A stretch of 64,000 nucleotides of DNA from Amphirosellinia nigrospora (Eukaryota > Ascomycota > Sordariomycetes > Xylariales > Xylariaceae), in contig SCHM01000003.1 in assembly GCA_004123355.1 (NCBI GenBank), positions 1,922,001 to 1,986,000 of the forward strand, read 5' to 3'. A model generated the notes under the pieces. The model was given only the letters and a program-made list of their open reading frames with translations, searched no databases and had not been told where the DNA came from. Shown one piece after another: positions 17,086-44,116 of this stretch. The first letter of the stretch is position 1, and every line of letters starts with the position of its first letter. The position numbers and the translations under genes were made by a program.

Positions 17086-18146
17086 ATGATAACGAGGACT
17101 GGGAATATTGGCCGGGCCCTAAGAAATAGGTAAGGCACTTTCAGATCCATATGTCTCGTCCGCCCTCTAACATATAGCAGACTTGGGCGTCGGCCAACGT
17201 TCCGAACATTCCAAAAGCGATGTTCAACGATTCCGAGCCAGAAGTCATCCATTAAGCCCAAGGCAGAGGCCTCTGGTCCAGCTGAGAATCCGATATTGCT
17301 CAAAGTCGGCAATTTCAAAGAAACGGAGTCTAAAAGGCCGAATTTCGACCACAGCAATACCCCTATTCCAATTACGAAATCGCCAAATCCGAACTGGACG
17401 TATGGAGATGGCGTAGCAATCAACGCTCCAACTAAATCTCTCAGTCACGAGGAGATTGATCCGTATGCTCCGGATCGATCCATGGTCCACAATTACCGTC
17501 TTCTAGTTTCAGGAATTGCACCTCGGCCCATAGGATTCGTGAGCACGGTTTCGGCAGATGGAAAGACTGAGAACTTGGCACCTTTTAGCTACTTCCAGGT
17601 CGTAGAACACGATCCGCCTATGTTCATTGTCAGCTTCTCGTCGCGACCGGGAAGGATGAAGGACACTTACCAGAACCTCAAAGACACCCGCGAGTGTGTC
17701 ATCAATACAGTCTCCGAGGATATGATCGAAGCAGTCAACGCTACATCCATTGATGCACCGAGACACATCTCAGAATGGGATATCTCAGGACTACACAAGG
17801 CGCCAACCTCGACAGTCAAGCAAAGCGCGTGCAAGAATCTATCTTTTCAATTGAAGGCAAGGTAGTGGATATCAAGGAATTCAAGTCTCATGTGACGGAA
17901 GGCAAAAGTCTTGCCGGTTTGGTACTCATCAAAGCAACCCGGTTTTGGGTCCGAGAAGATGCCGCCAACGAAGAATTTAGTCACATCGACCTCAATAAAC
18001 TTCGGCCAGTGGGACAGCTTGGAGGAATGGCATACGGTCGGATTACCTCTACGTTTGACCTCCCTCGGCCGAGGTGGGATGATGAGCAGCCCAAGAGCGG
18101 ATTGCTAACCCGATTAGCAACTCAGACTAACGACGATAGAGAATAA
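17086..18146 (+). CDS. Flavin-reductase-like FMN-binding protein, probably mitochondrial
   Basis: Flavin_reduct-like domain of the flavoredoxin/DIM6-NTAB type, which binds FMN in a split barrel. I place the start at 17086: exon 1 (17086-17129) encodes MITRTGNIGRALRN and joins across a 48-nt intron (17130-17177) to SRLGRRPTFRTFQKRCS. This gives an Arg/Ser-rich, acid-free N-terminus typical of a mitochondrial presequence. The core follows at about 17480: VSGIAPRPIGFVSTVSADGK, then ENLAPFSYFQ, the flavin-contact region of the family, and MFIVSFSSRPGRMKDTYQN, ECVINTVSEDM. The second half (about 17830-18146) has ESIFSIEGKVVDIKEF, GLVLIKATRFWV and LRPVGQLGGMAYGRI, again typical. One base appears missing near 17822. 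Substrate is unknown; it lies next to the secondary-metabolite region but nothing ties it to that pathway. Confidence 0.87.
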
Positions 18147-18675: not shown

Positions 18676-19575
18676 ATGGAGAGTGACACGAAACCCGCCA
18701 AGTTCTATGACCCGGAGGTCTATTGGCGTACCCCGGCTCGGAATTTCAGAACTTCGGCACGTCTGCACCTTCAACACACGCTCTTCCAGAACACACTGGG
18801 GTTTCTCTTAGAGAAGCACGTTGAACAGGGTATTCCTACGGCAACATCTAGCGTATTCAAGGTTGCCGATCTTGCTTGTGGTAATGGTGCCTGGTTGGTG
18901 GGATTGAGTGACGAACTTACCAATAGGGGCATCTCGGCGAGTCTAGATGGTTTTGACATCAACGAGATCCTCTTCCCTGCGTCAGCCTTTCTCCCGCCGT
19001 CGGTCTCTTTGAAAAGGCTCGACGTTCTCGCCAAGCCCCTTCCCCAGGAACTAATCGGCACCTACGATGTAGTTCACGTGCGGGCATTCGTGGGCCTAAT
19101 TCTGAACGCCGAGACGGCACCTTTGCTGTCCACTGTCCTCACTATGCTCAAGCCAGGCGGCTGGTTGCAGTGGAAGAAATCAATCCCGATATTCTTGTCG
19201 AGCCGGCTACACCGAGCCTGGAAAAGTCTGCGTGCGAAGCTCTGAAACGGGGGTGCGGGCCAGTAGCGAAGCAGACGGTCTTAAACTTGAGTTTATTGCC
19301 GAGTTAGATCAACATCTCATTAAGCATGGATTTAATGATGTTTACATGACCAAGACGGCAAAACGAAGGCAGGATTATAAAGCCTGGACGGATATTTTCT
19401 CATGGCTTGGGAAGAATGCGCTGGTTATTTTCCATCTAAGATCGTCGAGCCTCAGGCGCCTACTACCAGAGAGTTCTGGGCTGAAAACCTAGTCAAAGCC
19501 GTGGAGGAGACCGAGAAGGGAGTCACGTTGCATGCAGGTGTCGTAAATGTGGCTGTGGGACGCAAGACGATATGA
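18676..19575 (+). CDS. SAM-dependent methyltransferase A (UMTA/GliN-like)
   Basis: Class I SAM-dependent methyltransferase of the type common in fungal secondary-metabolite clusters. From MESDTKPAKFYDPEVYWRTP the protein runs through ARNFRTSARLHLQHTLFQNT, a family-typical N-terminal helix, to the SAM-binding motif I VADLACGNGAWLVGL (about 18860). DGFDIN (about 18950) supplies the acidic residue that usually holds the ribose, then YDVVHVRAF (motif IV region) and MLKPGGWLQW (about 19145). The C-terminal part is LIKHGFNDVYMTKTAKRRQD, then MAWEECAGYFPSKI and VKAVEETEKGVTLHAGV, ending GRKTI. Frame shifts near 19173, 19280 and 19397 fit missing bases or an unmarked intron. A closely related gene lies at 31521-32560 on the other strand, so the pair brackets the cluster. 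Substrate (O-, N- or C-methylation) cannot be told from sequence. Confidence 0.87.
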
Positions 19576-19818
19576 GGTAATCCTACATACAGAGTTACCC
19601 AAATTAATAGTCGCTGGTTGATCTATTCTATTCTATTTATGATTGTCTAAGATGACGTATACCTTAATATTGTGATGCTAGTTTTTGAAATTGCAATCCA
19701 TTGTAATACACAAGGAGTGTCGATTTTACCAAGAAAAACAAGATTTTGGGAGTCAAGGGATAATTGCGTATATTAATAAGGGGTACAAGGCCTAGCCCTT
19801 ATAGAGCAATACCAGTCT

Positions 19819-21914
19819 CTAGTCGAAGTGTATTCTCCACAGCTCACGATCACTTCCGCCCGTGAAATCGCTTCTTGTATGCATGGATAGAATGTTATCG
19901 CTTACTAGCATGTCCCCTTCTCCCACGTATGATAGTACGTAATCCGGCGGTCATGTAGGAGGTTGTCCAGTGTCTCACAGATCGAGTCACTACTCCAGTC
20001 GTCGTTGGTATTCTCGATCGTCAACTGTAGTTGGGTCGAAATAGTCTTGGATTGTGGCCACGGCTCATGATACCGTAAGCAAGGCACTTCTGTTTGAGGT
20101 GATTCACAACTAAGGGCAGGCCTCGAATAGTAGTTTGCTCAAAGGATGGGTCGACACCGTCCATCTGAGCTTGCGGAGGTACTCAAGCGGCAAATCCCTG
20201 GGTAAGTTGTTGAAGAGAACGGTAGAGCTTGTAAAAAGAGTGAAGCCCGTGTTTTTCGGCGAAGGAGTTACTGCTGTGAAAAATTGAAATCTGGACAAAG
20301 ATAAGCCAAAGTTAAACAGAACAGAGCCTTTGATCGAAGATATGTGGTATACATACCGTGGCGGAATAGACTATTCTCTTCTGTGCCATCCCCCTTTATA
20401 AGTTTCTTAGTCTTGAATAACCCGTCGTAGTGGAAAGGCATCCATTCTCCCGAGAGGACGTTGTTCAATCCACGTGTGTCTACACCACGGTCCTTAACTT
20501 CTAGCAGAAGGCCAAATTTCCACCCTACCGGAGTGCCAAAATCATGAGCTTTCTTAACGAAATTCTCTCGATTCGTAGTTCCAGAGAAATTTCTAAGGAT
20601 AACCGGTGAAGCCTTTTCCGCAAGTTGTCTGACTTTCTCAGCCTCCACGTCAGCGATTGTCAACGTCCCAGCTCCCGCCACTGGTTTAATCAACCAGCCC
20701 GCGGGGTATAGCGGCGCACAAGATACTTTCCCACTAGCCCATGAGAAAAGGTCTGATTTTTCTCTGAAGTAGCTAGGTCTACCATTTTCGTACACTAGCT
20801 CATAGTTTTTATCGGCTTCGAATTCTGCCCTCTGCCCCGTTGTGGTCTCGCCATCCAACCGGACAGCTAAACAGCAGTGCCACGGTGTAGTAAAGGAGGT
20901 TTTGGTAGGCAGCAGTCCGATAGGGAATTTCGTTTCCCCGGTAGATGGATGTATAGAGAGCCTGATATAGTCATGGAACCTGTTCCTCACAGCGCTAGCA
21001 AAAGCCTTGCAAATCGTAGTTAGTATGGTCTTTATTATAGCTGTGGGACACAATCAATAGCAATAATTACGTACATCACCTCGCGCAAGCATCTGCTTGG
21101 CTATATACTCAATTCCTTGTTTGTATTTTGACTTGGTTCGCTTCTCCGATAGTGGATAGACAGTATGTAAATCTGTTGTTAGAAATTTGATATAGCCCTT
21201 GTAGGTCTGGCAGACATCCTCATTCTCGCGGACCTTTGCAGAAGCATCAAACTTAGGGTTACCGTGCTGGGTGAGGAGGGCAAAGCGAAAGTTAGTGGCG
21301 TTAGCCACATAAGTGATCTCGTCTAAGTCCTTTGGAAGGTCGATGTTCACTAGGTGACTGAGTCGGCAGAACTCGATATGGTCGAAGCTCTTATCATGTG
21401 CTAGCTGACGGAGAGCTTCCCCATATGCCCAAACCTGCTTATCTGGGACACTAAGCAGATCTAGAGGTGTCATAACTGTCAGAAAGAAACTATCAAGGAT
21501 ATATACCAGAGAGTAATACCATTATAGACGAGCCCATCGGATATAATGGTGAGTTTTGCACCAGGGGGTATATATCAGCGATAGCTGCGCACATCCCGTT
21601 AAGATGGGCAAGTGCAATCTCCTCTGCTTTATCTGGGAGGCATCCCAGGACCTTCCAGTGGAATTTGGGGATTTGAAAGGGAATGCAGGAAGGCATAAGC
21701 GTATAGGAGCACGGGTCGAGGTTTGGGAGTATATCTGAGAAAGAATCCTAAAAACCCCTTCTAAAGACGTCTTAGGTGTCGTACGCCTGGGAAGCCGATA
21801 TCGCGAGAGAACGGCAAGTATGCGCGACGAGATCTCAAGATGCGATGCTTCTAAACTTCCCAAGTCTGCCGCAGAGGGCGTTGAGGGTGGTTTCATGCCG
21901 TTATTATTAATCAT
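19819..21914 (-). CDS. Isocyanide synthase fused to a TauD dioxygenase (PvcA/DIT1-TauD)
   Basis: Two-domain enzyme. The N-terminal half is a Pyoverdine/dityrosine biosynthesis (DIT1_PvcA) domain, which converts an amino-acid amine into an isonitrile. Visible landmarks: ISSRILAVLSRYRLP, PIRLCLPAFPFKSPNS (about 21670), KVLGCLPDKAEEIALAHLNG, PGAKLTIISDGLVYN (about 21540), then across an intron DLLSVPDKQVWAYGEALRQL, FDHIEFCRL, and after another intron DYIRLSIHPSTGETKFPIGL (about 20960), TPWHCCLAV and NGRPSYFREKSDLFSW. The C-terminal half is a TauD-type Fe(II)/2-oxoglutarate dioxygenase: PVILRNFSGTTNRENF, SGEWMPFHYDGLF with the iron-binding HxD (about 20440), and the distal WEKGDMLVSDNILSMHTRSD with RELWRIHFD at the end. 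Such fusions are known in fungal isocyanide clusters. The reading frame is also open upstream to an ATG at 22079; I prefer MINNNGMKPP. One C is missing from the C run near 21568, and other slips occur. Confidence 0.92.
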
Positions 21915-24032
21915 AATTGGCTGTATCTGTGCCCGTGCTGAGTTTCTCTCATTCAAGACAACTAAACCTGTGAAGTAATTACAGGTCTGAGCAAGTGCAG
22001 CATGAGATGTGATAAAGGCTTCCAAAGTTTCGTCGTTTGGCAGCCATGTTGAAACCCGAATCTGAGAAAAACATGTCATAAATTAAGACCAATTCTTTTC
22101 GAGGCTAGCGGGCTGCATGGTAGCCAAGGACAATCCTGCTTTTGTGATGCTGGTGTTACATCAAGAGCATTGAGACACATAAAGCCTCATGTGCAAGGCA
22201 GGTGATATTCAACGGCTGCGGGGCCTGTAACCGTTTCGAGTTCATTAAAGCCTTCGTCAACGATCACCTCGACTTGATTTCAAATTCAACAACCTTCAAC
22301 AACAAAGTTCAGTCATCGAGCCTAAACTAGTATACCTTGGCTTCAGTATTCGGGGCCGTCTTTTAGAGCGGCGTATAACTAAGTTACCTTTGTACTAGGA
22401 TACGTAGAGAATCCTTTGTCTTATATTATAGCTCAACTGCATCACATGCTAGCTATACCACGCGGATGTAAGGGCTTACATTCCCGTTTCTTTTGGATCT
22501 CCTGAACCGTGTGACTGACCCCTATTTTGTGCTACTCCATGGTGGTGAGGCTATAATGGGCTTGAGACATTTAAAGATGCGATACAACGTCATAATCGTG
22601 TAGCTTAACTACGTACTAATCAGCCGCAAGCAGAGTAATTAGCATACGGCTCGGCAAGTGCCTAGTAAAAATTTCTTCGACTCATTACTAATTTACTTTC
22701 GGTCCTATTACAAAAGATATAATAACATGTTACAATGGACACATGATAACGTGCTTTCGGATTCCGTAATCTATAGTTGTATTAGAAACCCCAATGAGCC
22801 ATCGTTCAATGAAGCCTTCACACCCGAGACAAATATTCAGGTAAAGCCCCCTGCTATCATAGCACCTTGCCGTTGCAGGCAGGAGGCCCCCCTGTGTAGA
22901 CTAAGTCTAGGACGCGTCTAGTTCCTCTTCGATGCTAAACGGCCCATTCGGCTGCCTAAACCGGTCCAACTAACTCCTGCCTATGTCCGGCATCGTGATC
23001 ACCTGTGGAAATAGCCTCGGCAGACAGGGGTCTCTGGTGTATGGGGCGCGCAAGATTTCCGCCAATCCACACATTTTTGGACGCGTAGGCAAGTCTTGGC
23101 AACACCCCGCCATAACTACCTACTTTTGAATCTACTACTATGTACATACAACTGCAGCGTAGTTTTAGGTCTACTAAAATTACGGCATACCCGATTTAGT
23201 GATAGTATGAGCGAATGTAGGATTAATATACACTATAAAAGTGAGAGACTAAGTGACTCGGAAGTCTCCGTGAGGGTCATGTCTTTATACATGTGACCCG
23301 TGCCTTTCCCTAACAGTATGGTGTTATGGAATATTATATTTTAGGCTTTGGTGTCTAGTAAGGATGCGGCTGAAAATATGCAGAGTAAATGGTGCCAAGT
23401 ACCTGCTAAAGGACTACGCAGTATCCACTTAAACAGCCACTTGTGCAATGAGTAAGTACCCAGTTGTATACTCACAGGATACGAATCTCCAAACAACAAT
23501 CAGCAACATTTAAATTAACTTAGCTGCTATGTACGCTTACTTTATGCTCGAAGGGTAGTATATATAGCTGCAGATCGGTTTCTGGCGATACAAAACCTGA
23601 TAATGGAAAATCGGGAGAGTCCTTCTTCTTCTGAACTTAATTTCATCCATCACGCCTAGTTTCATAGTAAGTGCCAAAGAAATCAACAAAGAGCTCAAAA
23701 CTAGCGTTGTTCTTTAATTTTAAGTTCAAGGTTTAGAATTAGTCAATACGGTCCGACTACTGTACCCAGTAATCGTCTCGGCGGTTATGCAGACTGTCAT
23801 TCTTACTGGAAATATATCATGTATGTGACTCGTTGCCCTAAATAGGTAGGAGCTTAACCCGGCAGTAGTCATCCCAAGTGCCCCATGGTCAACATAGCAA
23901 CTCGATCATATCCCAAAATATGAGGATGTCTTGTTGTCTTTGAATACTTGTTTGATGATAATCGCAAGCAAAGGTTTGGAGAGACGCAGAATCTTCAGCG
24001 CCACGGCTGATCAGAAGCGCACCAAACCCCAA
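21915..24032. promoter_or_regulatory. 2.1 kb divergent intergenic region between isocyanide synthase and FAD monooxygenase
   Basis: The isocyanide synthase reads left and the FAD monooxygenase reads right, so this shared upstream region should hold the promoters of the cluster core. It is AT-rich in parts (22640-22760, 23500-23740) and includes tatatag near 23560. I see no convincing coding frame and no repeated transcription-factor site that I can name. Confidence 0.4.
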
Positions 24033-25966
24033 ATGCCCAGCAATCCAAGAAATAATATGGAGGAGATAGTTGATCTGGCAATCATAGGAGGTTCATACAA
24101 ACCATATTGTCTGATTACCTCAACACTAGTAGCTGACCTTTTCTAGGTGGCCCTACTGGGCTTCTCTCGGCGATGCTTGCCCGTCGCCAAGGGCTATCAG
24201 TATGCGTAATTGGTATGTAAATGATTATACTGACATCGTGGGTTTCTTCTAACGGAACCAGACGCAAAACCCGGTGCCCTCGATCTAGGCCGTGCTGATG
24301 CCTTAAATGCCCGAACGCAGCAGTACTTTGAGGTAGCTGGTGTCCTTGACGAGCTTCTCCCCTAGGGCTCAAATGCAATAGTGAGTGATTATAAGACTTC
24401 ACCCTCCAATATCATGTGAACTAACGTCAGTCAGCGAGCTCGACCTTCGCAGAAGGAGAGTTCAAATCCCGCCAAAATCAATGGTGGACTAGCCTTGAAT
24501 ACTGCGCTCATCCCAACTTCCTGATGATTGGACAGCCACAAATTGAGAAAACTCTCCTAGGCCACCTGGACACCCCGGTTCATTACGATGAGCGGGTTGT
24601 GTCGATATCAGAGACTCAAGATGGGGTATCAATATTGACAGATCGGCAACGAAAAGTGCAGAGCAAATTCGCAATTGCCGCTGATGGTGCTCGATCAACT
24701 ATTCGGGAAGCCCTTGGTATCGGGTTCACTGGTACGAAGCCGGAGATGGTGTGGGCGGTACTCGATACCTTCATCGATACCGATTTTCCTCAATGTCCCG
24801 AGATAGTAACGTTCCAGCTCAACGAACAGTCTCGTGTTTCGTGGATCCCAAGAGAACGGGGCATGGCCCGGTTCTACATCCTGTTAGACGGCGAGATCAC
24901 TCAACAGCGGGCAGAGGATTCCATCCGCCAACACATGGCCCCATATCAAATCAACTTTGTTAAAACCGAGTGGTTTAGTACATTTGAAGGTTAGATAAGG
25001 CAATCCTCCCTACATGATCCGGGGGCCCGAGGGAAATAATCGCTGACCGTGTCCATAATGCCCTAGTCAAGGAACGGCTTGCGTCCACTTTCATCTCAAA
25101 AGAAGCAGGCCGTATATTTTTAGCTGGAGATGCGAGCCACGTGCATTCCGTAAATGGAGGACAAGGTCTAAACACTGGTGTCGCAGATGCATTCGCTCTT
25201 AGCTGGCGATTGGCAATGACAATCAATCATCCTTTATTGACACCTGCTGACAGGACTAAGCTACTCCAGAGCTACGATACCGAGCGGCGATTAGTGGCGA
25301 AGGAGGTAATTGACGTTGCGGCCAGACTAGTCAGGGACACGAAGACGACTGCCAAGCAATATGTCGGAACGATCGAGAAGAATGCTGGTTATATTACAGG
25401 TAAATCAAGTCACCTCAACACTTCAAATTCATTCTACAGGCCTCAAACCTATAAGTCGCCGCGCTAATACTACGCTATAGGGATGGGTGTTTCATATCAT
25501 GATTTGGGCTCATCCCTGGTTATCGAATCTCACCAAGGGATCTGGAAGGCTGGAAAGCGTTGCCCAGATATTCTCATATCAAGACTGGAAAGTGATGGCG
25601 ATGAGCAACGGCTATATTCCCGCATTACGGAAAGCTTTTGATCTTGCAGCTTGGGACAATTTCCACACCCCTTGCTCATTTCGATGAAGAAGTTGTTCAC
25701 TTTATTCTACTACCTCGAGGTGTACGACGCACAGGAACTGAGGACCTGAAAGAGGTATGGCTCTCAGATGAGGCAGTATTTCCCCAGAACGTGATATCTG
25801 GGAAGACACCCTTTTGATCATTGTTCGGCCGGATATGTACATCGCATATGTTGGCAATGGAGACTTGATGAAAATGTCCAAGAACAGTCTCATTCAAGGT
25901 TTATTGGAAGAATCTAACACCACAACGTTACCTTCACCGACGGAAAAGCCAACAACGGGAGCATAG
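24033..25966 (+). CDS. FAD-dependent monooxygenase, phenol-hydroxylase type
   Basis: Aromatic-ring-type FAD monooxygenase (FAD_binding_3) with a C-terminal thioredoxin-like dimerisation domain. The dinucleotide-binding motif is VDLAIIGGGPTGLLSAMLAR, assembled across an intron (about 24089-24147). Then come VIDAKPGALDLGRADALNAR, FLMIGQPQIEKTLL, AADGARSTIREALG (about 24680; the DG motif) and GRIFLAGDASHVHSVNGGQG (about 25108; the GD motif, which contacts ribose and flavin phosphate). The C-terminal domain ends in WEDTLLIIVRPDMYIAYV. Introns near 24209, 24380, 24993 and 25399 fit GT-AG. Codon TAG at 24363-24365 interrupts LLP-GSNA in frame, and a one-base slip lies near 25632. The slip fits sequencing error; the TAG could be error or a real CAG-to-TAG change, so the gene may be inactive. 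It likely hydroxylates a product of the neighbouring isocyanide synthase (inference). Start may be 24057 instead. Confidence 0.85.
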
Positions 25967-27264
25967 CGAGATCCGACCCCACTTCAAGGCCATGGCTTCA
26001 GATTTTGGGCTCCTTTTTTCTCTATTTCAACACATGGGGTAAATAGACGTTTCATATTGAATAAATACTTTCGGGGAATTACCGAAATCTGGCTGATTGT
26101 CATAGGCCTCATCTCCAGCTATGGAAGTTTCCAGGCTTTCTACGAGGTAGATTTGTTGCGGACCAAGACACCATTTGTGATATCAATTATCGGCTCACTC
26201 CAGACATTCTTGATGGTGTTCCTAGGCTTCATTACCGGTCCAATATATGATTCGGGCTACTTTCGATATCTCCTAATCATAGGCTCATTTTTCGTCACTC
26301 TTGGTACTCTGAGTCAGAGTTTTTGTACTCAATATTGGCAGTTACTCCTGGCTCAGGGAGTAGCCGTAGGTATTGGGTGTGGTTGCTTTATAATCTTAAG
26401 CGTTGCAATCCCATCTCTTTGGTTTACCGACAAGTTACCACTTGCTAATGCATTGCGGCATCCGGCAGTGGTGTTGGAGGGTGAGTCTTCTCCAAAGCCA
26501 CGTGCTTCGATTCTAGGTATTAATTCGTCGCTAGGGTTACCTTCCCATCTTGATCCGAAACTTACTTCCTAAAATTGGCTTTGGTTGGACTGTTCGCGTT
26601 ATAACCCTTATCATAATTGTGACACTCATGTATCAGTAACATAATCCTACGCGGGCCACCAGTTTCAAAACAACGACGGAAGCTAATACATCGGAGTTCC
26701 CTGAGCGATTGGCCATACGTCACATTCGTGATAGGTTGCTGCTGCGTCTTCCTTGGAATTTACACTCCTTTTTTCTACATCCAGAGTTATGCAATCCAAA
26801 GCAATCTTGCATCCGCCAATACGTCATTCTACATTGTAGCCGCGATGAATCTTTCATCCATATTTGGCCGTATCATTCCAAACTTCTTCACACATATCGT
26901 GGGGCCATTAATAATGATCACAGCAACCAGCGTCACACTTCTAGCTACCGCTTTTGGTTTCATTGGCGCGCAGAGCATCGCAACTATTTTCGTGGTTGCC
27001 ATAGTCTATGGCTTCTTTACAGGAACTTTTTTTGCCCTTCAACCGACGGTGTTCGTGCGGCTCACAAAAGATATGCGCTTTATGGGAACGAGGTTCGGAA
27101 TGGCCTTTTCTGTTATGTCCATTGCCCTTCTATTTGGACCACCAATTTCTGGAGCTTTACAAAGGGTATTTGGATACAATGGCTCGTGGGTCTGGGCTGG
27201 TGCGACAATTCTACTCGGAACTGGAATGTTCGCGGTATCTTTCCATCTCTCTCAACGGAAATGA
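25930..27264 (+). CDS. MFS transporter, monocarboxylate-transporter-like
   Basis: Multi-pass major facilitator of the fungal MCT-like type. The first helix reads WLQILGSFFLYFNTWG and continues across an intron (about 26038-26106) as LISSYGSFQAFYEVDLLRTK. The next helices contain SIIGSLQTFLMVFLGFITGP, YLLIIGSFFVTLGTLSQSF and LLLAQGVAVGIGCGCFIILS. The second half (from 26728) has GCCCVFLGIYTPFFYIQSYA, PLIMITATSVTLLATAFGFI, YGFFTGTFFALQPTVFVRLT and FGYNGSWVWAGATILLGTGM, stopping after HLSQRK. The frame slips near 26450 and 26640. The start is unclear: the N-terminal frame is open over the last codons of the FAD monooxygenase, so the two genes abut or one end is misplaced by a sequence error. Its place between two tailoring genes suggests export of the cluster product or self-protection. 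Confidence 0.82.
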
Positions 27265-28064
27265 GATACACTCAAGCTCTAGCGAGGTGTGCACTTTTAT
27301 ATCCACTTGCAAGGCATTTATTTCCAAATGGCACGGGTCAACCCCTAGGACACCAGGATTTAGCGTCTCCCGATGGAGATGTCACTATATAGATAGGGGT
27401 CTTTTTCCCCTACGGTATCATGGTCTATACTAAACATGCTAGTAACAAGACTTAGGACACAAATAAAGGATGGGGGCAGCCGGGCTCGGTCCTGTGCACA
27501 TTGTGTCAGAAGCGTGCAATGATAGTAATAGCGACTAATAGCAAAGTCGGTCTGAACAAATTTATGAGAGTACCTGTGTCACACGGATTTTCAGCCCTCG
27601 GCTGCAGCTCGTTTATTTGTTCCATTTTGGGTTATATTGGCTACACAGGCCAACTGAGGTCCGTTGGAATAGCCCGAAATCTGTGTATATAGGCTAGTCA
27701 GGTCCCGAGCCCTCTGGAAAGGAATCTAGAGAGTAAGAGGTCCTTTGACGCCATAGCCAATTATTAGATCTGAAGGAATGAAGCTATTCCCAAGCCCTCA
27801 AACAGAGCCCTTGTGACAACCTGTAAATGTCTTATTCTCGTATTAGCGCTCCTTAGGTTGACTTATCTTGGGCTTCGAAACAGTTATGTTCTTTACCGAC
27901 TGGTACTTATTAATGTGTTTCTTTCTGATGTTTACTCATAACTTTTGTGAAACATGTTGGGAATATAGGGGCAACTCTCGGAGTGCAGTATAGGAAAAAC
28001 TAAGAGGAAGCCCATTAACAAAAATTCTGTTAATTATATAAAAATAACCGCACTACGACGTTTT
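27265..28064. other. Intergenic between convergent MFS and GH78 genes
   Basis: About 800 bases with no supportable gene, AT-rich towards 28000-28060. It presumably contains both 3' ends. Confidence 0.4.
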
Positions 28065-30266
28065 TTATGCCAACGTCACAACCGTCTTTCGCCCACCTTG
28101 AACCTGCACCTCCTTTGTCCCAACAGCTTGGCCCCCTACGGTCCCAGTCGTGCCACCAGGCGCATTGACAGTAACAACGATGTCACCTGTCTCATTTCGG
28201 TTCCAGCTAACTTCTAGTGGCCCGTGAGGCGTAGGCACGACGCCCTTCGCCCAAGAGATATCATCTGTAGCAATTGGGTTCACAGCCCACTCCGAGAACC
28301 CGGGTTTCGTAGGCTTGACGCCCAGAACATACGTACTCAAAAGGGGCGTAACGCCCGTCGACCATCCATGGGCTAGACTAGTATCGGCAGCCTCATACTT
28401 GCTACCGTTTGCGCCGATGCCCTCCCAATGCGTGATACCTGGGTCCTGACTCGCCATCCAACCCCACGTCCGCCGGATCATGTCGATAGCACCAGCTGCA
28501 TCGCCGCTCTCAAAGCGCGCCGCACCCTCGAAATATGATATAAACGCGTATACGCGATCTGAGAAGCCACTCTGCAGGGCCTCGCCGCCGGCATCGTAGA
28601 AGGCGTTTCCGTAGGACCGGGCGGTATGTCCAGATAGGTACTGAAGGGCTGCTGACGCTGTGGTGGCGTTTGCTATCCCAGCCAAGATGGCCAAGCTGTT
28701 CCCATCCTGGGCGTGCGCCGTGCACCCATCGCATTTGCGGTCAAAGTACGCCGATACAGAGGAGTCCCAGAGTGTATTCTGGAAACCCTGTGAGACGGCG
28801 ACCGCGCGCTCTTTCCAGCGTGTCGCGTCTGCATCTTTGCCAGATATCTCCGCAAGGGATGCCGCTTTATTCAAAGCTAGCACGTACAAGGCGCTGTAAT
28901 ATGCAGCCGATCCTGGCGCGGCAAAAATGCGAAGTCGCCGTATCCGTCTGGGCGGATGAGTAGTTGCGTCGTGTTATCCGTATGTGCGGGGTAATAGGTA
29001 TCTAGAGTTTTGACCATGACAGGGTAGTACGCGTCGAGATACGATGTGTTACCGGTATAGAATACATAGTCCCAGCTGCATGTAATCCAATATAAGGGAT
29101 AATCGAAAAGCGTGAGCCCGTAGTTGACGATGCTGGCAGGTGGGATCCAACCGTCAGCGCGCTGGTGTGCGGCCAAGTCTTCAAGGACGTTCAGAGAGGC
29201 CGCCGAGGTGTCATGAGAGAGGTAGCTCGTCAGTGACGAAACGGCCAGGTCTCCTATATATGGGTCACGATCCCGCTTCGCGCCGTCCTGAAGAACGAGT
29301 TTGCCTAGCAACGAGGGGCTGGCTGCACCCCGTGGCTCTGTGTTGTTTGCGCTGAAAATATCCGTTCCCATATCAAGTGTGTACACCCCGTCGTACCACC
29401 ATTGCGTCAGCTCCGCATCAGAACACTCAAACCATCCTGTGAAGGTGTCTGCTGTGCCTAGGTATCCAGACCAACGTAACGCTACAGAGGAAATGCTTAC
29501 TTGGCCATCTGGGGACGCATAGGGCGCATCCGTTGTCAGAGCATCTAGGGAGATCCGGACATAACGGAAGCCATGTAGGCCGTCCGAGCAGACGCGACCG
29601 TCGTACTCACAGCCCCATTGGTCCTCCCAGGTATACTGACCATTCTTGACGGCGACCTAGGATACACAACTGTGAGCCTTTGTTCGGTTCCCTGCTATTA
29701 CTGTGAGGTATTGTTTGTTTTCTTACCTGGTCGGTTCCCGTAGTAACGATTTGGGTGGATCCTGATGTGGAAGATATTAGTCCCAGGGCCTCTAGATCAA
29801 CTTTAACAGCAATTGACCGTCATAGCCCGAAGCTTTAGCATGAAAACGACGTACCCCGCTGGCCCTGTCCGAGCGCGTGTAGTCACTACGATCAGTGAGA
29901 TACTCAAGGGCCTCCGAAAACGCCAAATCGAATTCCAGGAAAGCCCTGAGTTGTCCCATTCGCCGACCCGGCAAACTCGAGCAGCAGTTGGCCCACCACG
30001 TTCTGTCCAAAGTCAACGACTAGTATCGGGGTTTCATCTGAACCAGAGGCTCTCGTGAGCACAGTCGTAGCAGCGCCCGTGATTATTCCATCGGCATCCT
30101 TAACATCGCCCTTGGTGTAATTTGACAGTATCGTCTTCGGACGCACAATATTGCTGCTTGGGGAGCGCACATACTGTTGCCAAGTCGGTGTGTCTTGTGC
30201 GAGTGTTAGGAAACACGACGCGAAAGCCACTAGCCAGGAGGCTGATATGAGCGACGCTGCCTGCAT
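28065..30266 (-). CDS. Secreted GH78 alpha-L-rhamnosidase-like glycoside hydrolase
   Basis: The start MQAASLISASWLVAFASCFLTLAQDTP is a signal peptide with a likely cut after Ala; an in-frame ATG 16 codons upstream is less likely. The N-terminal part has ILVVDFGQNVVGQLLLEF, then SEALEYLTDRSDYTRSD. The catalytic six-hairpin domain follows: RDRDPYIGDLAVSSLTSYLS, HQRADGWIPPAS (about 29160), DYPLYWITCSWDYVFYTGN, YPVMVKTLDTYY, RPDGYGDFAF, then YVLALNKAASLAEISGKD and HWEGIGANGSKYEAADTSLA (about 28420). It closes with the C-terminal beta-sandwich (GPLEVSWNRNETGDIVVTVN) and stops at 28065. These are the features of GH78 enzymes, which cut terminal rhamnose by inversion using acidic residues. Frame slips lie near 28885 and 29930, and an intron is inferred at about 29660-29730. 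It could digest plant glycosides or act on a glycosylated metabolite of the neighbouring cluster. Confidence 0.85.
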
Positions 30267-31520
30267 GATGTTTTTTCTAGAAGCAGGTACGAAAGAAGCA
30301 CGGGGGGTGACCACCAGGGGTCACGGCAAATATATCGTGCATAGGAATCCTGCATCTTTGTGTCATCCCGCCTGGTATTATATCATAAGAGGGCCTTTAC
30401 ACCGACATTAGAAAATTTCAACTGTACACAAGTAAACAATCACCTCCACTCGGCAGAATGCTACCCGAGCCCTTAAAACTGCAGGTTATGATATGCTGTT
30501 CGGGGAGCAGAACAACCGAAGGTAGCTGTAGGATCCTAGAAGATGAATTGACAATTCTCTGACGGTACAAGGTACCTGCTTAGTTGGGTCTAGATCACAA
30601 ACCATCTATCCCCACATCACCAACACCTGGCCGATCGATCATGTACTTTCCCCGCATTGTACGTCGTGTTAAGCACGGCTTAACTCGATCAGAAGACCGT
30701 GGCCAGGGCTACTCAACCGCCTCGGTCCCAAAACCCCGGGTTTTCGGTGCAGTTGAGAAACCATTCATTTTCGGTTGCGTAACTTAAAGGCATGGCCTAA
30801 TCTATATGTGCCATTGTTTAACTTTTCGTAAACATTAGACAGGGGTATTATGACCAATAAGATTAGATTGTCCATTTTTTACATCTGGACAAGCAACAAA
30901 TAGAGTAGCAAGACCCCCCCGACTAGCGCTATCGAATTGTGAAACGGTCTCCCTTTCCTTCAGGTCGCCACCAGACGCTACTAAGATACTGGTTTTTTCA
31001 ATATTTTTCGCGATGACCTTCGTTACCTCCTACTGAAAAATCAAGATATTATTTCGAGATCAAACGACGTGACTATTCGAACACGAATACAAGTACTTCC
31101 CTGGTAAACAAGTGCCCTGAAGCGTGCCGTCGATGGACGTGTAGGCGGCGAAAATGAAACGCCCTGGGCCGCGAGTCATATTGCGCGCGTGCTCCGTTGC
31201 TCGACACGCTCTTGCTAGTCAAGCCCCCAGCGACTTCGAGTCTATGAGATGAAGCACCGCATCCCTCTTAGAGAGGAAGCGTAGTCATGTTGCCAAATAT
31301 AATCCTGAACTAGTGACCCTGGGAGAGGTTTTCCACAACTTGCCCTAATTACATCATGTTAGACTGTGAAGATTGATTAGACACCAGGCTTGTCACAGTA
31401 CGTATATAGGAGCTGCGGACGGTCACGTATTCAACTTGACTATGTTATGCCTTTTGGTAGTGTTGTAGTTTAGTGCTGCAGTTCTGTTCCATGACAGGGA
31501 CCTACTAGAAAGGTATTAAG
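30267..31520. other. Intergenic, about 1.25 kb
   Basis: Upstream region of the GH78 gene and 3' region of methyltransferase B. No coding frame or repeat is convincing. Confidence 0.4.
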
Positions 31521-32560
31521 TTATAGAGGTTTCTGGCCAACACCACTAAAGAGCTTTCCTTGATGGACCACAACGCCTTCTTCAGTCTCCTTGACAGCTT
31601 TGGCAAATAGTTCAATCCATCCTTCGCGAGTCATTGGTGCATTTGGGTCCTTCAATTTCGAGGGGAAAAACACGGCAAGTTCCTCCCAGACCATCAAGTA
31701 ATCCTCAGTCCACTGCAATACTCGGAGTTAGTTATTCCTGTTTATAGAGTGAATTGTGAGTGTATCAGAAGCTTCGAGACAATATTTCCAAAAAGGAACA
31801 CTGGTGCTCTAAAAGTTGCTTAAATCAGTAGAGAATGAGTCCGAGAATTACGTACGCCTTTGAAGTCTTGCTTTCTCTTCTCCTGCTCATTCAAACGCAC
31901 ATCCTGAAAGCCAAACTTGCTGAAATGTGTGTCCATAACATTCGCCCATTCCTTCACACCTCTGGCCTGACCGGCTGCCTCGAGCATCTGCACAATAGTG
32001 TCACAGGCAACTTTAGATACCTCAGGTGAAGGCGATTCCGCGATGAATCTGTCGCCTTGGGTTTCGTCCCATTGTATGTATCCACCAGGTTTCAGTAGCT
32101 CTGATGCAACAGAGAGCACAGGTGTTAGATCTGCATTGGCGATGGTACTATGGAAAGCTCGAATGTGGACGACATCATAGACTCCAACAAGTTCAGCCGG
32201 CAGCGGTTTCGCAAGGATATCTAGCTTCTTGAAAGAGACATTGGCCGGAAGATAGGCAGGATGCGGAAAGAGGAGGGGGTTGTAGTCAAAGCCGTCCAGC
32301 TGGGCGGAAATTTGATTCTTGGCAAAGTGAGAGTGAAGCTCAGTTAGCCATACACCATTGCCGCAGGCAAGATCGGCGATCTTCAGCGGTTGGGAGTTAG
32401 CGATAGACTTCTCGATTGCTGGCTCTAGAAGGTAGCCGAGAGTGTTTTGCATGAGGAAATGCTGCAGGTGCAGGCGCGCAGAAGTTCTGAAATTTCTGGC
32501 CGGGGCAACCCAGAACGTTGACGGGTCATAAACCTCGGCATCGCCAGATGAAGTCGTCAT
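31521..32560 (-). CDS. SAM-dependent methyltransferase B (UMTA/GliN-like), paralogue of A
   Basis: Class I SAM methyltransferase starting MTTSSGDAEVYDPSTFWVAP. It shares ARNFRTSARLHLQH exactly with methyltransferase A (18676-19575), as well as NTLGYLLE, the SAM motif IADLACGNGVWL (about 32370), DGFDYN, LDILAKPLPAELVGVYDVVH and LLKPGGYIQWDETQGDRF. Further on are FSKFGFQDVRLNEQEKRKQDF and, after an intron of roughly 140 nt (about 31713-31852), DYLMVWEELAVFFPSKL and AKAVKETEEGVVVHQGKLFS. Unlike most genes in the window, its main exon (about 230 codons) has no frame slip. It and copy A probably arose by duplication; they are divergent enough not to be a recent copy. It is the outermost recognisable member of the putative isocyanide cluster on this side. 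Confidence 0.9.
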
Positions 32561-33795
32561 CTTGTTTGCAGCAGGGGATTTGAAGGCGTTGAAAGAGGAC
32601 TGATGAAAGTTGATAGCGCTGAACAGTATGCAGTGGTCGGCTCAATTGAGGCGAACGGAGCGGTGCAATCCGATAGCAATATCAACATGAGTTGCTAACT
32701 CAACATCGACAAGGCTCGGTAGGTATGATGTTCGGGTTTTTGACGAGAAGGCAAAATTCAAAAGATCGAAAGCGCGAGGACAACATTCAAGAGCCGGGCT
32801 AGCCGACGTAAGCGTTGACTAGAGCCGCCCTAAGACGTTAGACACAGGAAGGTGGGCCACTCGACCTACTAAGGTCCAATGGGCGCCTCTAGAAAGAAAC
32901 TCTTTGCTTGTCTAAATAAGGGTTGAAACATAGGAGCATAGGTGGCACGACTACGATTAATAGGTATAGAAGGTCATTCTGCGCTGTCTCATCCATAGAA
33001 GGCTACTTGCTTATTTTGCTTCATAACTGTCAAAAATAGTGGATACGTATACGTATAATATAGCAATAAATAGATTGTATCAAATCAAAGTAATTAAAAA
33101 AAGATCCAGGTCCAAAAGACTCAGAGCATATATACGATATATATAAAGTAGAGTATATCACACCTCACTTAATTCAACAATGACGCACCAGTCTCAGCTT
33201 AGACCTCGCAACATGAACCTGATTCTTTTTTGAGCAAAAAAAGGACCCGAACGGAATGATGCCAGGCGACTTAGAAGAAATACTTGAAGCCGATCACCAG
33301 GCTAAGAAAGGTGACGAAGTAACTGGATTATCTTCATTTATTGATTATGGGTTCAACATTTGCCCAAAGCCACAGGTAAACAATGCTGACAACGTCATGG
33401 TGACCGTATAGATGAATGCGGGACTGAGAATGCTTCCCCAACAACGGTAAGGATAATATTACCTGTGACAAGAAAGAATGTACCTGTCAAAACGACTTTC
33501 TTCCACGCCAAGTATCTCGAGTGATAGCTAGAGGTCTTGTGAAAAATAACGTGAGACTACTCCAAGGTTGCTTTTAGCACTGAAGGTAGCAGTGCTTTTC
33601 GATGAGTTCCTATTCCTGCCCCCTCGCCCACCGCACTGTCTTCGACATGAATATCTTCCCAGAAAGAGTGCATATACAGCGGTAAATCTTTGTAACTTGC
33701 CAGGTCTTTCGAGCAAAGGACTTGAAAAGTGGAAATGCCACGGGCATACATGAACACAGTATACCAATGTTGAGTTCCGCCATGCTTTGAATAGG
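32561..33795. other. Intergenic, AT-rich, about 1.2 kb
   Basis: The region upstream of methyltransferase B. It is strongly AT-rich at 33000-33180, with alternating TA runs (cgtatacgtataata; atatacgatatatata). The last 250 bases may hold the 3' exon of the rhodopsin-like gene, but I cannot define it. Confidence 0.4.
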
Positions 33796-34942
33796 TTAAC
33801 TTTGTTTCGGGATGCAGCATGATATTTCATATGTACCTGATTGCTTGAAATTTGACTGAAAGCCATGTGCGGTCGTTTTAGCAGCCTGGGATAAGACCTG
33901 GTAGCGATAAACTGATCCAATTGTTGAGATTATACATGGCCTATCTTCTATTAGAAAATGGTTCAAACGGAAAGGCTTCGGAGCCCGTACAATAGACCTG
34001 TGAGAAACACACAAGCGACACCTATTCTCCTTTTAAGAGGCATTTGGAGCCCAAAGACCATATAGACGGGGATTGCGAGGACGTAGAAGTCAGACAGAGC
34101 GCTGCCTAGTCCTATGACAAAGTTGACGATTTGAATAGGGTAGATACTTCTTGCAGTATTCTTTCGCGAACCCCACCCCCCATCACCAGCTCGTGGGACG
34201 AAGTAGTAGATGAAGGTCGCTGACAACGTGACATGAAATAACGAGATGGCAATAATTCCCGTTCGTATGAAGACCACGGCTCGACGCGATGAATGGAAGA
34301 TGCGAATGCATAGTACTAATACAGATGCCTTAATCAAGATAGCGCTTACGCTGTAGAGAATGGTTTCCGTTAAAGAGCACTATGGCCACCAATTTCAGAA
34401 TCATTTTCTGTTTCTTTCTAGAGGGATTATTTGACATGTCTTACCTCAAAGAACACGGGAGTAAGGGCAGAGACTGGGATATTCCACGAATGTCGTCCAG
34501 CACGTCATTGAGAACTATTTCAATCAGTGCTTTACGTCCTTCAAAGGGCAAATATTACAAGACTTACATGTTGGCAACAAAGTGCCACAAGTAGCAGAGG
34601 TGGTCACCTAGTACATTTAGTGTATAATTCAATTTTATTTGTGCAATTGAGCTAACAGTAGCTGCAAGTAGTAAATCTAGTCAACGAAATCAGTCTTAGG
34701 ATTGTAAGGGGCAACCGACCCAGTTACCACATACAATCGTCGACTCCCAGCTGGCGGTTTTGTATGCGAACATATGCGCGCAGAGCAACTGCTACCAGGG
34801 AAAATGGTAGAGTCAGAAATATAGCCAATCTTCCGCTCCAGGAATAGGAAACTGAGTTGACGAAGTTGCTCACCTCTCCTGGAGGAGGATGGCTGAGCGG
34901 AACGGTTGACAGATCCAACCTTGGCAACGAAACGGGACTCAT
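33796..34942 (-). CDS. Rhodopsin-like (Pth11/SAT4-type, Fung_rhodopsin) seven-TM protein
   Basis: Fragmented but recognisable member of the Fung_rhodopsin family of seven-TM proteins, to which Pth11-related receptors belong. The start MSPVSLPRLDLSTVPLSHPP leads into the first helix, LAIFLTLPFSLVAVALRAYV, and the family signature RIQNRQLGVDDCMW (about 34735). An exon near 34470-34520 reads HSWNIPVSALTPVFFE. The block at 34337-33963 has IKASVLVLCIRIFHSSRRAV, ISLFHVTLSATFIYYFVPRA, YPIQIVNFVIGLGSALSDFY and VLAIPVYMVFGLQMPLKRRI, the last being the conserved D-P-helix plus cytosolic RR region. Beyond that, ISTIGSVYRYQVLSQ continues. Several introns and probable one-base slips prevent a clean model and the C-terminus is uncertain. 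Roles of this family range from surface sensing in pathogens to unknown; it may be decaying. Confidence 0.7.
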
Positions 34943-37019
34943 TATGGATGTAGTTAGGTACCTCTCCAGGCCGTGTCGGAAGACATACACAATTCTTGAT
35001 ACGTGAAGGCGAGAATAGTATAAATATAACGGGAATACAACTACTTTAATAATCATTGGGCACTCTTCGCTAGTGTCCGTGTGAGGACTTCTGTACCAGA
35101 ATTGGGCCAGCCTCGAGGTCATACCAGAATGCCAATTAAGTATGTCAGCGAAGATAGAAAGAGCGAGGCCCATAGCCTCATGACACAGTTTTCTTAGTTT
35201 GGTATTCTGCCTCCACTCCTCTATTCTCTAAACGCCTAGCATGTTGCTCGTAAGGAAGCATCGAACCCGGCATCCTCGCGGTGCGGCGCAGGGGGCTTAC
35301 GTTTACAATGGGTTTCAAAATTTGCAGAAACGTACATTTTACTCAAAAGCCTCTGCAAGTCTATGCCAATGGCTGGCTACAAGGCTTCCATAAGTAGAAT
35401 CATATAGCTATCCTTGACAGGTGACCTACAATACCTCGAATGGGCTTGTGTGCGATAGTACAATGGATATGAATTATACACTTATAAATCTCAGAAATTG
35501 GAGTTGTGCACTACAAGCAAGATTTGCATTTGGTAATAAACATAATCGTGAGGTAATATGCTGTCCTACCCCAACTAACCCTTCTTTATTGATATACACA
35601 GCCCCAACTGCTGCCTAACAGCCGGAAAGGGCAGTGCTTCGGAATTCTATTCAACTGATACAAGTGCAGGCGATATGTTGGTCTTGGGGAAATTCACACT
35701 TCGCCGACAAGTCAATTAAGATTCGCGCCTTAGCTGTGGTACTGGAAAAACCTATATTCGCGAAAAATCAATTGAGTCATCATACCCCTGATCTTTTTAT
35801 AGTAAGTCTCAGATGTAAAGCAGAGTGCAAGCCTAATCTGGCCTAGTAGAGGTTGTCCATGTCTATCTATAGTTATGTGAAAGTTTCCCCAAGATGTTTG
35901 TTTGATGTTTCCTCTCAACCCTTGGCCCTATCAACAATGTGCCTTACCTAATGTGAACTTGGCCTCATGTGCGATGTCCTACTACTTAAAATGCAGAGCG
36001 CCACGGCAATTAAGCTCGCGCTTATTCCCGGAATGCTAGCCTAGTCGCTAACTAAAAAGAGCCGCGACACTAAGACCTCCTTCGCGGCAGTCTATTCAAC
36101 TACGACATTTCAGGCCAATTCCTAACGCCTTTGCTTTGACGCGTATTGCTAACCACGGAAGTCGACCGGATTCCTCAGTTACTATTACGGATAAGTAATT
36201 GATGTTCAAGACGGTTTCGCGACAGCGCGTAAGCGTTATCAGTCATATCGAATTCTTGAACTCAGCTCTCATTTCAGGGCGGTTGCCAGCTACATCAGTT
36301 CACATAGCATTGCCTACCTTCCCAAAAAGGAAACCAAAAATCCCCGAAGTCGTGACGCCAGCTGTAAGACAATTAGATAATTACCGAGCTATCCGAGGGT
36401 CTTACTATTAGTCATCAACTACTTAGTAGCATACAAGGCAATAAATATCCTTGTAGGTGGCCTTCGATGGTGAATATGCAGTTGTCAGGATTATTTTCAT
36501 ATATAATAAGTACATAAACTCTGAAACATAGTTCCATTATAACGCTTTCTAAAGAGAGCTAGTTTAACGCTGCAATCCAACGTAAGTCGCCAATCCCTTC
36601 ACTTCTTTATAAATAACGATATTTTATTGGAAAGCATTTTATATGAGGATGTGGTATACTACTGGATAATGCTCACTCGGCCGATCCGGATGGGTCATTG
36701 GGCCGTAATTTGGAATCTCTCGTTTGGGCTAACCCGTTATGTATCGACAGATATCTTGCAGACTCGATGTCGCGCGATTCTGATCAACATCCCCTTCATC
36801 CTACATACAATATTCTGTTGAAACGCAGCATATTTTATTGTGTTTAGATAGAACTTATTGCTTCTATGCTGTGTGGTCCTTCTCAGCTACTTACGACTTA
36901 ACTTCACATGGTTAGACTTATTTGAGGGAACTTTTCGTTGATACTCGCCAAGGAAGAACGCATCGATAAACTACGCGTTCTCGGCGCCTATACATCGCGG
37001 GTGAAATATCATCTTTGTC
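34943..37019. other. Intergenic, 2.1 kb, AT-rich
   Basis: I find no supportable gene between the rhodopsin-like gene and the small membrane protein. Frames stay below about 70 codons and match nothing known to me. AT-rich around 36430-36660. No repeat or mobile element recognised. Confidence 0.4.
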
Positions 37020-42855: not shown

Positions 42856-44116
42856 CTAACTCGCACCACCATTCGCAGCGGCAGTCTTAGGCGGCGGGGT
42901 AAAGACCCCGAAAACTCCATACCTCTCATTCAAGCCCCACGCCGTAGGCGAATCGTCATGAACAGTCGTCCTCCTAGGATCGCGGATATATTTCCCCGCA
43001 AGTACCGGCCGGGGCCCGCGCGATGCAGGACGGCGCGATTGTCCCAGATCACCAAATCCGAGGGATGCCTGCAGCGCACGGCGACGACATATTTGTCCTG
43101 CGTGCGCGTGGGCGTTGAGTGATTTGACCAGGGCCAGGAATCCTCTACCTCTCTCCCCTCGGCCCCTCTCTCTGCGTCTAGGGACGGCGAGGGAGGTTCT
43201 TCGACATGGTGTAGGTGCGCCCCGACGTATAAATTCATCCGCCGCTCGGCTCGTGACGCTGCAGGATGCGGTGCCCGCGTCATCGGGACTCGGTCGGGTC
43301 GAGGTCCGCGAAGAACGCCGGGGATCCGAGCTTGCGCGAGTGCGCCATCGAGTGCGCGCCTACCAGTCCCCCTTCTCCGAGAGGAGTGCCGATACATCCG
43401 CGTCCAGCTCCTCGGCCGCGTCCGCGAGTCCGCGAAGAGCGTGTCTCCTCCCGTCTCGGGGGGCGGTAGCTGCGCGGCGCGGAGCAGCGAGAACGACGCG
43501 CGTCGCGGGTTGAACGACGAGTCGGCGTGGAAGAGGCCGTTGCCGCGATTCGCGTTCGCGTGCGCCCGCGCGCTCGTCGGATCGAGCGGTGTCGGCTTCT
43601 CCCCGCCGCGATGGGCTCGAGGGAGACGTTCCCGCGCGTCGAACAGCTCGTAGTGCGCGTATCGTGGCTTTCGCCCGTTTGTGAGGTATCGCTTGATATT
43701 GTCTAGCTCGCCGAAGCGTGCTGAGAAGGATACGGTGCGCGGCGTCTGAGAGGCCTGTGTTGCGGAAGACGCAGACGCCGTACTAGGTGCGGTGTTGGTT
43801 AGTAATACCTCTGTAAAAGAATATTGGTATTCGTAGGTTTATGGGGTTGGTTGACATGAGTGGTAATGTGTACATAAGTGAATTGGGTGCTTTGTGGATA
43901 CAAAGAGGTGAGCGAGGGGTGTAGAGCGTGATGGATAGACGTCAATTAAACGTGTATCCTCCTCACCTTTGCCATCGCGGCCACGATCTCAGAGAACTGC
44001 TCCTCGGACACATCGTCAAAGTTGACGCCCGAGACCTCAGCCGCGAAAGTCGGATGCAGCTCCTTGATCTCGATGGTCTTGAACTGTGGTTCCTCTTGCT
44101 TTAGGAGGCCCGGCAT
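42856..44116 (-). CDS. TauD/TfdA-family Fe(II)/2-oxoglutarate dioxygenase
   Basis: Stand-alone 2-oxoglutarate-dependent dioxygenase, fungal TfdA-like subgroup. It starts MPGLLKQEEPQFKTIEIKEL, continues HPTFAAEVSGVNFDDVSEEQ and EIVAAMAK, then an intron (about 43964-43800). The central part (43750-43150) is very GC-rich and its frame is broken in several places, so the HxD iron site cannot be placed with certainty, although NLYVGAHLHHVEE (about 43230) is near it. The C-terminal region is clean: WSNHSTPTRTQDKYVVAVRC, HPSDLVIWDNRAVLHRAGPG (about 43040; distal His of the 2-His-1-carboxylate triad) and the Arg-containing RDPRRTTVHDDSPTAWGLNE, stopping TAAANGGAS. Such enzymes act on sulfonates, aryloxyacids or small amino or fatty acids; substrate is unknown. 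It is unrelated in sequence to the dioxygenase half of the isocyanide synthase beyond the shared fold. Confidence 0.82.

Follow-up and report, generated by a model that had tools for sequence, protein, structure and literature searches.

An isocyanide synthase–TauD gene and a phenol-hydroxylase-type flavin monooxygenase gene as the putative core of an isonitrile pathway in Amphirosellinia nigrospora

Introduction

Which of the genes gathered around an isocyanide synthase (ICS) gene of the fungus Amphirosellinia nigrospora belong to one biosynthetic pathway? We addressed this question in a stretch of 64,000 nucleotides from contig SCHM01000003.1 (positions 1,922,001 to 1,986,000; assembly GCA_004123355.1), hereafter the window, in whose coordinates all positions are given unless another contig is named. 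The assembly comprises 48.1 Mb in 11 contigs, and the window is part of the one designated C5. An initial annotation, made from the sequence by a model, had proposed that six genes located within 14 kb, encoding an ICS fused to a TauD-type iron/2-oxoglutarate (Fe/2OG) oxygenase, a flavin adenine dinucleotide (FAD) monooxygenase, a major facilitator superfamily (MFS) transporter, a GH78 enzyme and two methyltransferases (MT1 and MT2), jointly make and export a hydroxylated, methylated isocyanide. Each of these genes was confirmed by domain or structure matches (Table 1), and the comparative evidence points to a smaller putative core, formed by the ICS–TauD gene and the divergently oriented FAD gene, whose bacterial relatives stand in a row.

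The ICS–TauD and FAD genes

Both halves of the fusion could be assigned. PF05141 matches lie at 20796-21734 on the minus strand, later TauD pieces match PF02668 (one at E 0.12 only), and a single open frame (20271-21053), which holds the end of the ICS part and the start of the TauD part and matches PvcA (3e59), PvcB (3eat) and PIsnB (7tcl), spans the junction, giving the gene a XanB-like two-domain architecture. Three introns are predicted (21476-21519, 21006-21074 and 20291-20356), the third of which does not on its own keep the frame; a TGA codon within the ICS part falls in the 69-bp intron 21006-21074. The ICS–TauD, FAD, MT1 and GH78 genes change frame at places where, read by eye, no intron appears to fit, and the genes were therefore analysed piece by piece. 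Searches against solved structures with one further TauD and one ICS piece of the window, and with one TauD piece from contig C1, gave no useful match.

Enzymes forming vinyl isonitriles carry K or R at the position of PIsnB residue 107 and N or H at that of residue 188, and isocyanoacrylate formers carry L and C (Kim et al. 2022, PMC9467999). In the 7tcl alignment the window TauD retains the HxD motif, W74, G104 and K107 of PIsnB (HYDGLFK), and in the piece 19908-20138 the H of RYHEP falls at the N188 position. With both positions of the PIsnB type, the window TauD is predicted to be a vinyl-isonitrile former, a prediction to which these two diagnostic residues lend moderate weight.

The FAD gene, with five predicted introns, matches PF01494 at 24425-24991 and 25018-25464. 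Of the NCBIfam models, NF005531 (PRK07190) fits both pieces best, with E 3.3e-51 for the first and 2.5e-34 for the second; the next-best models reach 1.7e-16 (phenol 2-monooxygenase) and 1.2e-24. The NF005531 scores of 174 and 119 bits come from 189- and 149-amino-acid (aa) pieces of a broken gene, against a cut-off of 530 bits. The family is labelled 'FAD-binding protein', with no function named. For both pieces the best solved-structure match is VibO, which has D54, I279 and Y289 in common with phenol hydroxylase and in which R97 and R287 are needed (PMC10257657). I279, R287 and Y289 are present in the first window piece and in all 23 FAD proteins from the bacterial operons described below, and a GRAD motif occurs in another window piece; at the Y289 site, seven other group-A enzymes compared have a different letter (six) or a gap (one).

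Sequence comparison places the window enzyme with the operon proteins. Its first piece is 37-44% identical (183-188 aa) to the 23 operon FAD proteins versus 12-22% to seven other FAD enzymes, drawn from Kutzneria and from the fungus's own genome and in some cases aligned over short stretches; for the second piece the values are 46-54% (~142 aa) versus 27-41%. A tree of the first piece, built without one short row, separates the other FAD enzymes from the window and operon proteins with support 0.98, and in that of the second the window protein falls, with weak support, among the operon proteins. Since the window enzyme is much closer to the operon enzymes, and since the six other own-genome matches of its second piece reach at best E 2.2e-11, it appears unlikely from these alignments that the FAD gene is a chance neighbour of one of the five ICS genes of this genome.

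Bacterial ICS, TauD and FAD gene rows

A profile scan of genome contigs with an ICS/TauD alignment yielded seven bacterial loci (L051-L057). The window FAD pieces match the gene next to ICS/TauD in three of them (L055, L056 and L057) at 38-55% identity, and in L051 the same FAD gene begins but runs off the end of the contig. When 368 genomes of the phylum of L057 were searched with its FAD protein (E <= 1e-60), 30 match places were obtained in 29 genomes. Twenty places were fetched: ICS and TauD stand directly upstream of the FAD gene in 18, one has TauD only and one holds only an FAD fragment; two of the ten places left are L056 and L057 themselves. The FAD gene also lies directly behind ICS and TauD in L055, L056, L057 and L064, and the three genes stand in a row in Burkholderia stagnalis (plasmid collection). 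Such rows were thus seen in two Bdellovibrionales metagenome-assembled genomes, a Legionella metagenome-assembled genome and B. stagnalis. A LysR-type family occurs near 15 of 23 loci (Pfam checked for L057 and L055), and in L055 and L084 an ATP-grasp gene then follows.

The bacterial ICS and TauD genes occupy separate frames or have a stop between them in 25 of the 26 loci having both, L053 being ambiguous. A 639-aa open frame of B. stagnalis, considered as a bacterial ICS–TauD fusion, was rejected because the ICS match sits in another frame; this leaves the case intact, since it rests on the gene row and not on fusion.

Because relatives of the FAD gene follow ICS and TauD genes in bacteria, a link between the fungal ICS–TauD gene and a phenol-hydroxylase-type FAD enzyme is supported, and the occurrence of relatives of this enzyme set in a row in unrelated bacteria suggests a shared pathway.

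Two further bacterial loci differ in composition. A plasmid of Hymenobacter sp. DG01 (L104) carries ICS, TauD and an FAD oxidoreductase in a row; the last is not detectably of the NF005531 type, and the row is possibly a second way to the same arrangement. In Streptomyces sp. NBC_00060 an ICS gene is accompanied by a cytochrome P450 (P450) gene, with no TauD or FAD gene in the stretch examined.

Proposed pathway and alternative explanations

On the sequence evidence we consider it reasonably probable that the core of the locus is an isonitrile pathway of two genes and three activities (ICS, TauD and FAD). The ICS half would convert an aromatic amino acid, probably L-tyrosine, into an isonitrile, and the TauD half, judging from its two diagnostic residues, would decarboxylate and desaturate this intermediate to a vinyl isonitrile, 4-(2-isocyanovinyl)phenol. 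The FAD enzyme would then oxygenate the phenol ring, most simply by ortho-hydroxylation to a catechol or possibly by a VibO-like ring expansion, and the MFS protein may export the product.

Several observations weigh against this proposal. Three of the seven bacterial ICS loci found first (L052, L053 and L054) have no such FAD gene, and the fungal side of the comparison rests on one genome. Single changes at positions 107 or 188 do not switch the product (PMC9467999), and among bacterial TauD proteins position 188 is N in 17 of 23 and C in two, the motif being unrecognised in the other four. All seven ICS–TauD pieces find their best match in ICS loci of the fungus's own genome (C1, C8 and C6), not in the bacterial operons. 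No 8-10-mer is common to at least four of the five promoter regions, in a comparison that has low power with five regions and whose null draws included repeats. Lastly, the frame breaks of the ICS–TauD gene (five clear and one doubtful, by eye) look denser than those of three HSP70 genes in the same assembly (two, two and one), and other housekeeping genes show no break along most of the profile length (C6:4018175-4019656, C6:181474-182850 and C5:4071527-4072810), which leaves room for true decay.

Such decay, in which the breaks are genuine and the locus yields no product, would account for the intron-less frame changes in the ICS–TauD, FAD, MT1 and GH78 genes; in the MFS and flavin-reductase genes a frame change could be either an intron or a break. 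As a control, two housekeeping families, HSP70 and TCP1, were searched in the same assembly. The same kind of break was found in HSP70 genes: on C8 and C7 these are divided between adjoining frames whose profile positions follow on from one another (e.g. L043 and L044). Two breaks were seen on C8, two on C7 and one on C5; a repeat search recovered a single C8 break and the two on C7, but not the one on C5. Several TCP1 genes are likewise split, and within the window pieces of the TPR and HIR1 genes overlap in different frames. Because housekeeping genes are broken too, insertion/deletion error in the assembly is the likely and simplest explanation, and apparent pseudogenes in this assembly are not to be trusted. 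The pseudogene reading was set aside after this control, and with the catalytic residues kept as well, a decayed cluster appears improbable.

Two other explanations draw the limits of the pathway differently. The six-gene cluster of the initial annotation is favoured by the proximity of its members, by the frequent presence of MFS genes in ICS clusters (PMC10153163) and by the putative methyltransferase XanE of the xan cluster (PMC5974471). Against it, the pair formed by MT2 and a fungal-rhodopsin-domain gene recurs elsewhere in the genome with no ICS detected beside it (see below), relatives of the MFS, methyltransferase, GH78 and flavin-reductase genes were not found in 28 bacterial loci (E <= 1e-10), and the promoters share no motif; we regard a single six-gene unit as unlikely. 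In the other explanation, the FAD, MFS, flavin-reductase and GH78 genes would serve the breakdown of plant phenolics and lie beside the ICS gene only as neighbours; the combination of rhamnosidase, transporter and phenol-hydroxylase-type enzyme would indeed suit the use of phenolic glycosides. A literature search at title and abstract level found no phenolic-degradation cluster with an ICS, and the FAD enzyme is a member of the family found alongside bacterial ICS and TauD genes and not one of the catabolic phenol hydroxylases, so that this explanation is very unlikely. The two-gene ICS–TauD/FAD core thus remains the preferred reading, and the case for a larger cluster is weak by comparison.

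Origin of the pair

The comparison of ICS–TauD pieces covered the own-genome ICS loci, the 23 operon loci and seven other bacterial loci, and by it all seven pieces are closest to fungal ICS proteins. Given these best matches, transfer of an operon does not by itself explain the pair, and wholesale transfer from bacteria is not supported. From sequence similarity, the ICS–TauD and FAD pair looks mosaic. In one scenario a fungal ICS–TauD gene acquired the FAD gene as a partner; in the other the two have stayed together here since ancient times, and other lineages lost the FAD gene. The own-genome ICS loci include an ICS on C8 with a P450 gene and an MFS piece within 10 kb, and an ICS–TauD gene on C1 near AMP-binding and reductase domains; FAD_binding_3 was found in none of the 30 open reading frames (ORFs) scanned around the C6, C8 and C1 loci. 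On C6 (L010/L011), two ICS matches are separated by ~7 kb, and MFS and P450 genes lie close by.

More tentatively, at somewhat short of even confidence, we propose that NF005531/PRK07190 is an isonitrile-pathway phenol oxygenase, of which a bacterial-type member came to be paired with a fungal ICS–TauD by transfer or ancient survival, in a class apart from the xan, crm and dit clusters that would make monomeric, ring-oxygenated vinyl isonitriles (catechol or ring-expanded).

Neighboring genes and cluster limits

The features of the locus are collected in Table 1. The inferred introns are short (44-81 bp). PHM7-like and TPR/MLP1-like genes form the left flank, and DUF2456, mannosyltransferase and HIR1 genes the right.

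Table 1. Features of the ICS–TauD/FAD locus, in window coordinates
Feature	Position	Strand	Evidence and remarks
Flavin-reductase-domain gene, left of MT1	17134-18146 (limits uncertain)	+	PF01613 in first piece
Methyltransferase MT1	18676-19572	+	Methyltransf_25, E 3.8e-5 (below cut-off); paralogue of MT2
ICS–TauD (Fe/2OG oxygenase) fusion gene	~19820-22079 (start codon uncertain)	-	PF05141, PF02668; 7tcl/3eat/3e59 matches
TauD part of ICS–TauD gene	~19820-20690	-	
ICS part of ICS–TauD gene	~20770-21735	-	
Region separating the divergent ICS–TauD and FAD genes (~2 kb)	22080-24056		
Group-A FAD monooxygenase, NF005531/PRK07190 type	24057-25966	+	PF01494, NF005531, VibO; divergent from ICS–TauD
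MFS transporter, downstream of FAD gene	25967-27264	+	PF07690, split over two pieces (25967-27261)
High-copy short repeat with inverted ends, between MFS and GH78	27577-27818		
GH78-type alpha-L-rhamnosidase	28065-30266	-	PF17389/PF17390 (28068-29656), 8iwd
Methyltransferase MT2	31524-32560	-	class-I methyltransferase
Fungal-rhodopsin-domain gene, partner of MT2 in duplicated pair	33613-35227	-	PF20684; tblastn to C1

MT1 and MT2 are class-I methyltransferases that share 53% identity over 196 aa. The pair of MT2 and the rhodopsin gene is found again on C1 (L041/L042) in the same order and orientation, with 73% DNA identity between MT2 and its counterpart and protein matches for the pair (tblastn). 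Around the C1 pair, the readable part of a 20-kb stretch showed no ICS match, and the nearest C1 ICS found in a genome-wide search lies ~88 kb from it. Because the pair recurs on C1 without a detected ICS, MT2, on this genomic evidence, is probably not a pathway gene. MT1 could methylate the product, and the MFS transporter is a possible pathway member. The GH78 gene, which gives the single match in the genome to a GH78 query and has no discernible tie to the ICS gene, appears to be a neighbour rather than a pathway gene, and the same probably holds for the flavin-reductase gene, the second piece of which has no family match. A rhamnosylated isonitrile, considered from byelyankacin and the presence of GH78, was dropped after a literature search gave nothing tying GH78 to such a product.

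A copper-type box (TGTGCTCA, a motif not found in PMC5974471) occurs in the window only at positions 636 and 30056. Neither site falls in a cluster promoter, and the copper box of the crm and xan clusters is thus absent from the five promoter regions, leaving regulation by copper without support.

Frame changes, the flavin-reductase and fungal-rhodopsin genes and the repeat between the MFS and GH78 genes were absent from the initial annotation. The repeat (~242 bp) has at least 40 matches genome-wide at 80-97% identity, and its inverted ends (TGTCACAMGG) resemble those of a short inverted-repeat element. In the region that separates the two core genes, a 24-aa match at 22472-22600 to the C8 ICS region is the only match seen. 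A separate TauD-family gene lies at 42930-43838, with no adjoining ICS match in the genome-wide search.

Comparison with known systems

The xan, crm and dit clusters are the only characterised fungal ICS clusters (Nickles et al., PMC10153163). According to the same preprint, ICS–TauD proteins account for 36.2% of the ICS proteins of fungi, and ~60% of ICS clusters contain MFS genes, so the fusion and the MFS gene are ordinary parts; the words 'FAD', 'flavin' and 'monooxygenase' are absent from its main text. The initial annotation had suggested that a cluster combining an ICS with a phenol-hydroxylase-type FAD enzyme and a rhamnosidase may be new. For the ICS and the FAD enzyme this fits a limited literature search (titles and abstract beginnings, mostly open access), which among the papers listed found no described ICS cluster with an FAD or flavin monooxygenase, and none in the passages checked of PMC12139152 and PMC11457142; the combination of these two enzymes, though, exists in bacteria. 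For the cyclopentyl isonitriles of Trichoderma, the search gave no account of biosynthetic genes at title and abstract level.

The xan cluster of Aspergillus fumigatus resembles the locus in its fused ICS–TauD protein, XanB, which provides a xanthocillin-type core from tyrosine, and in its putative methyltransferase XanE (PMC5974471). It differs in having the P450 XanG, with a proposed role in dimerisation, and the isocyanide hydratase homologue XanA, and the word FAD is absent from the main text of that report (PMC5974471). Neither a XanA-type hydratase nor a XanG-type P450 was found among 20 ORFs scanned at 15.4-37.9 kb, where short or broken genes could escape.

VibO (PMC10257657), the best structural match of the FAD enzyme, is an oxepinone-forming flavin monooxygenase with which the window protein has I279, R287, Y289 and GRAD in common. 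Its substrate, on the route to vibralactone, is a prenylated phenol, and the similarity is at the family level only. The pvcABCD genes of Pseudomonas aeruginosa, for paerucumarin, likewise combine an ICS and an Fe/2OG oxygenase with tailoring genes to give an isonitrile coumarin (PMC3639982). At the two diagnostic positions, however, PvcB carries L and C. PvcC is an HpaB-type flavoenzyme and not a member of group A.

The closest counterparts are the bacterial ICS, TauD and NF005531-type FAD rows, which encode these three activities in adjacent, co-oriented genes, with the same FAD family; they differ in that their ICS and TauD genes are unfused and less similar to the fungal gene than its own-genome relatives are, and in the LysR-type family nearby. 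The locus thus ties a fungal ICS–TauD to a flavin enzyme with bacterial relatives encoded just after ICS and TauD genes. This partnership has independent support from bacteria, its predicted function offers a testable role for NF005531/PRK07190, a family without a named one, and its product would be a new type of isonitrile.

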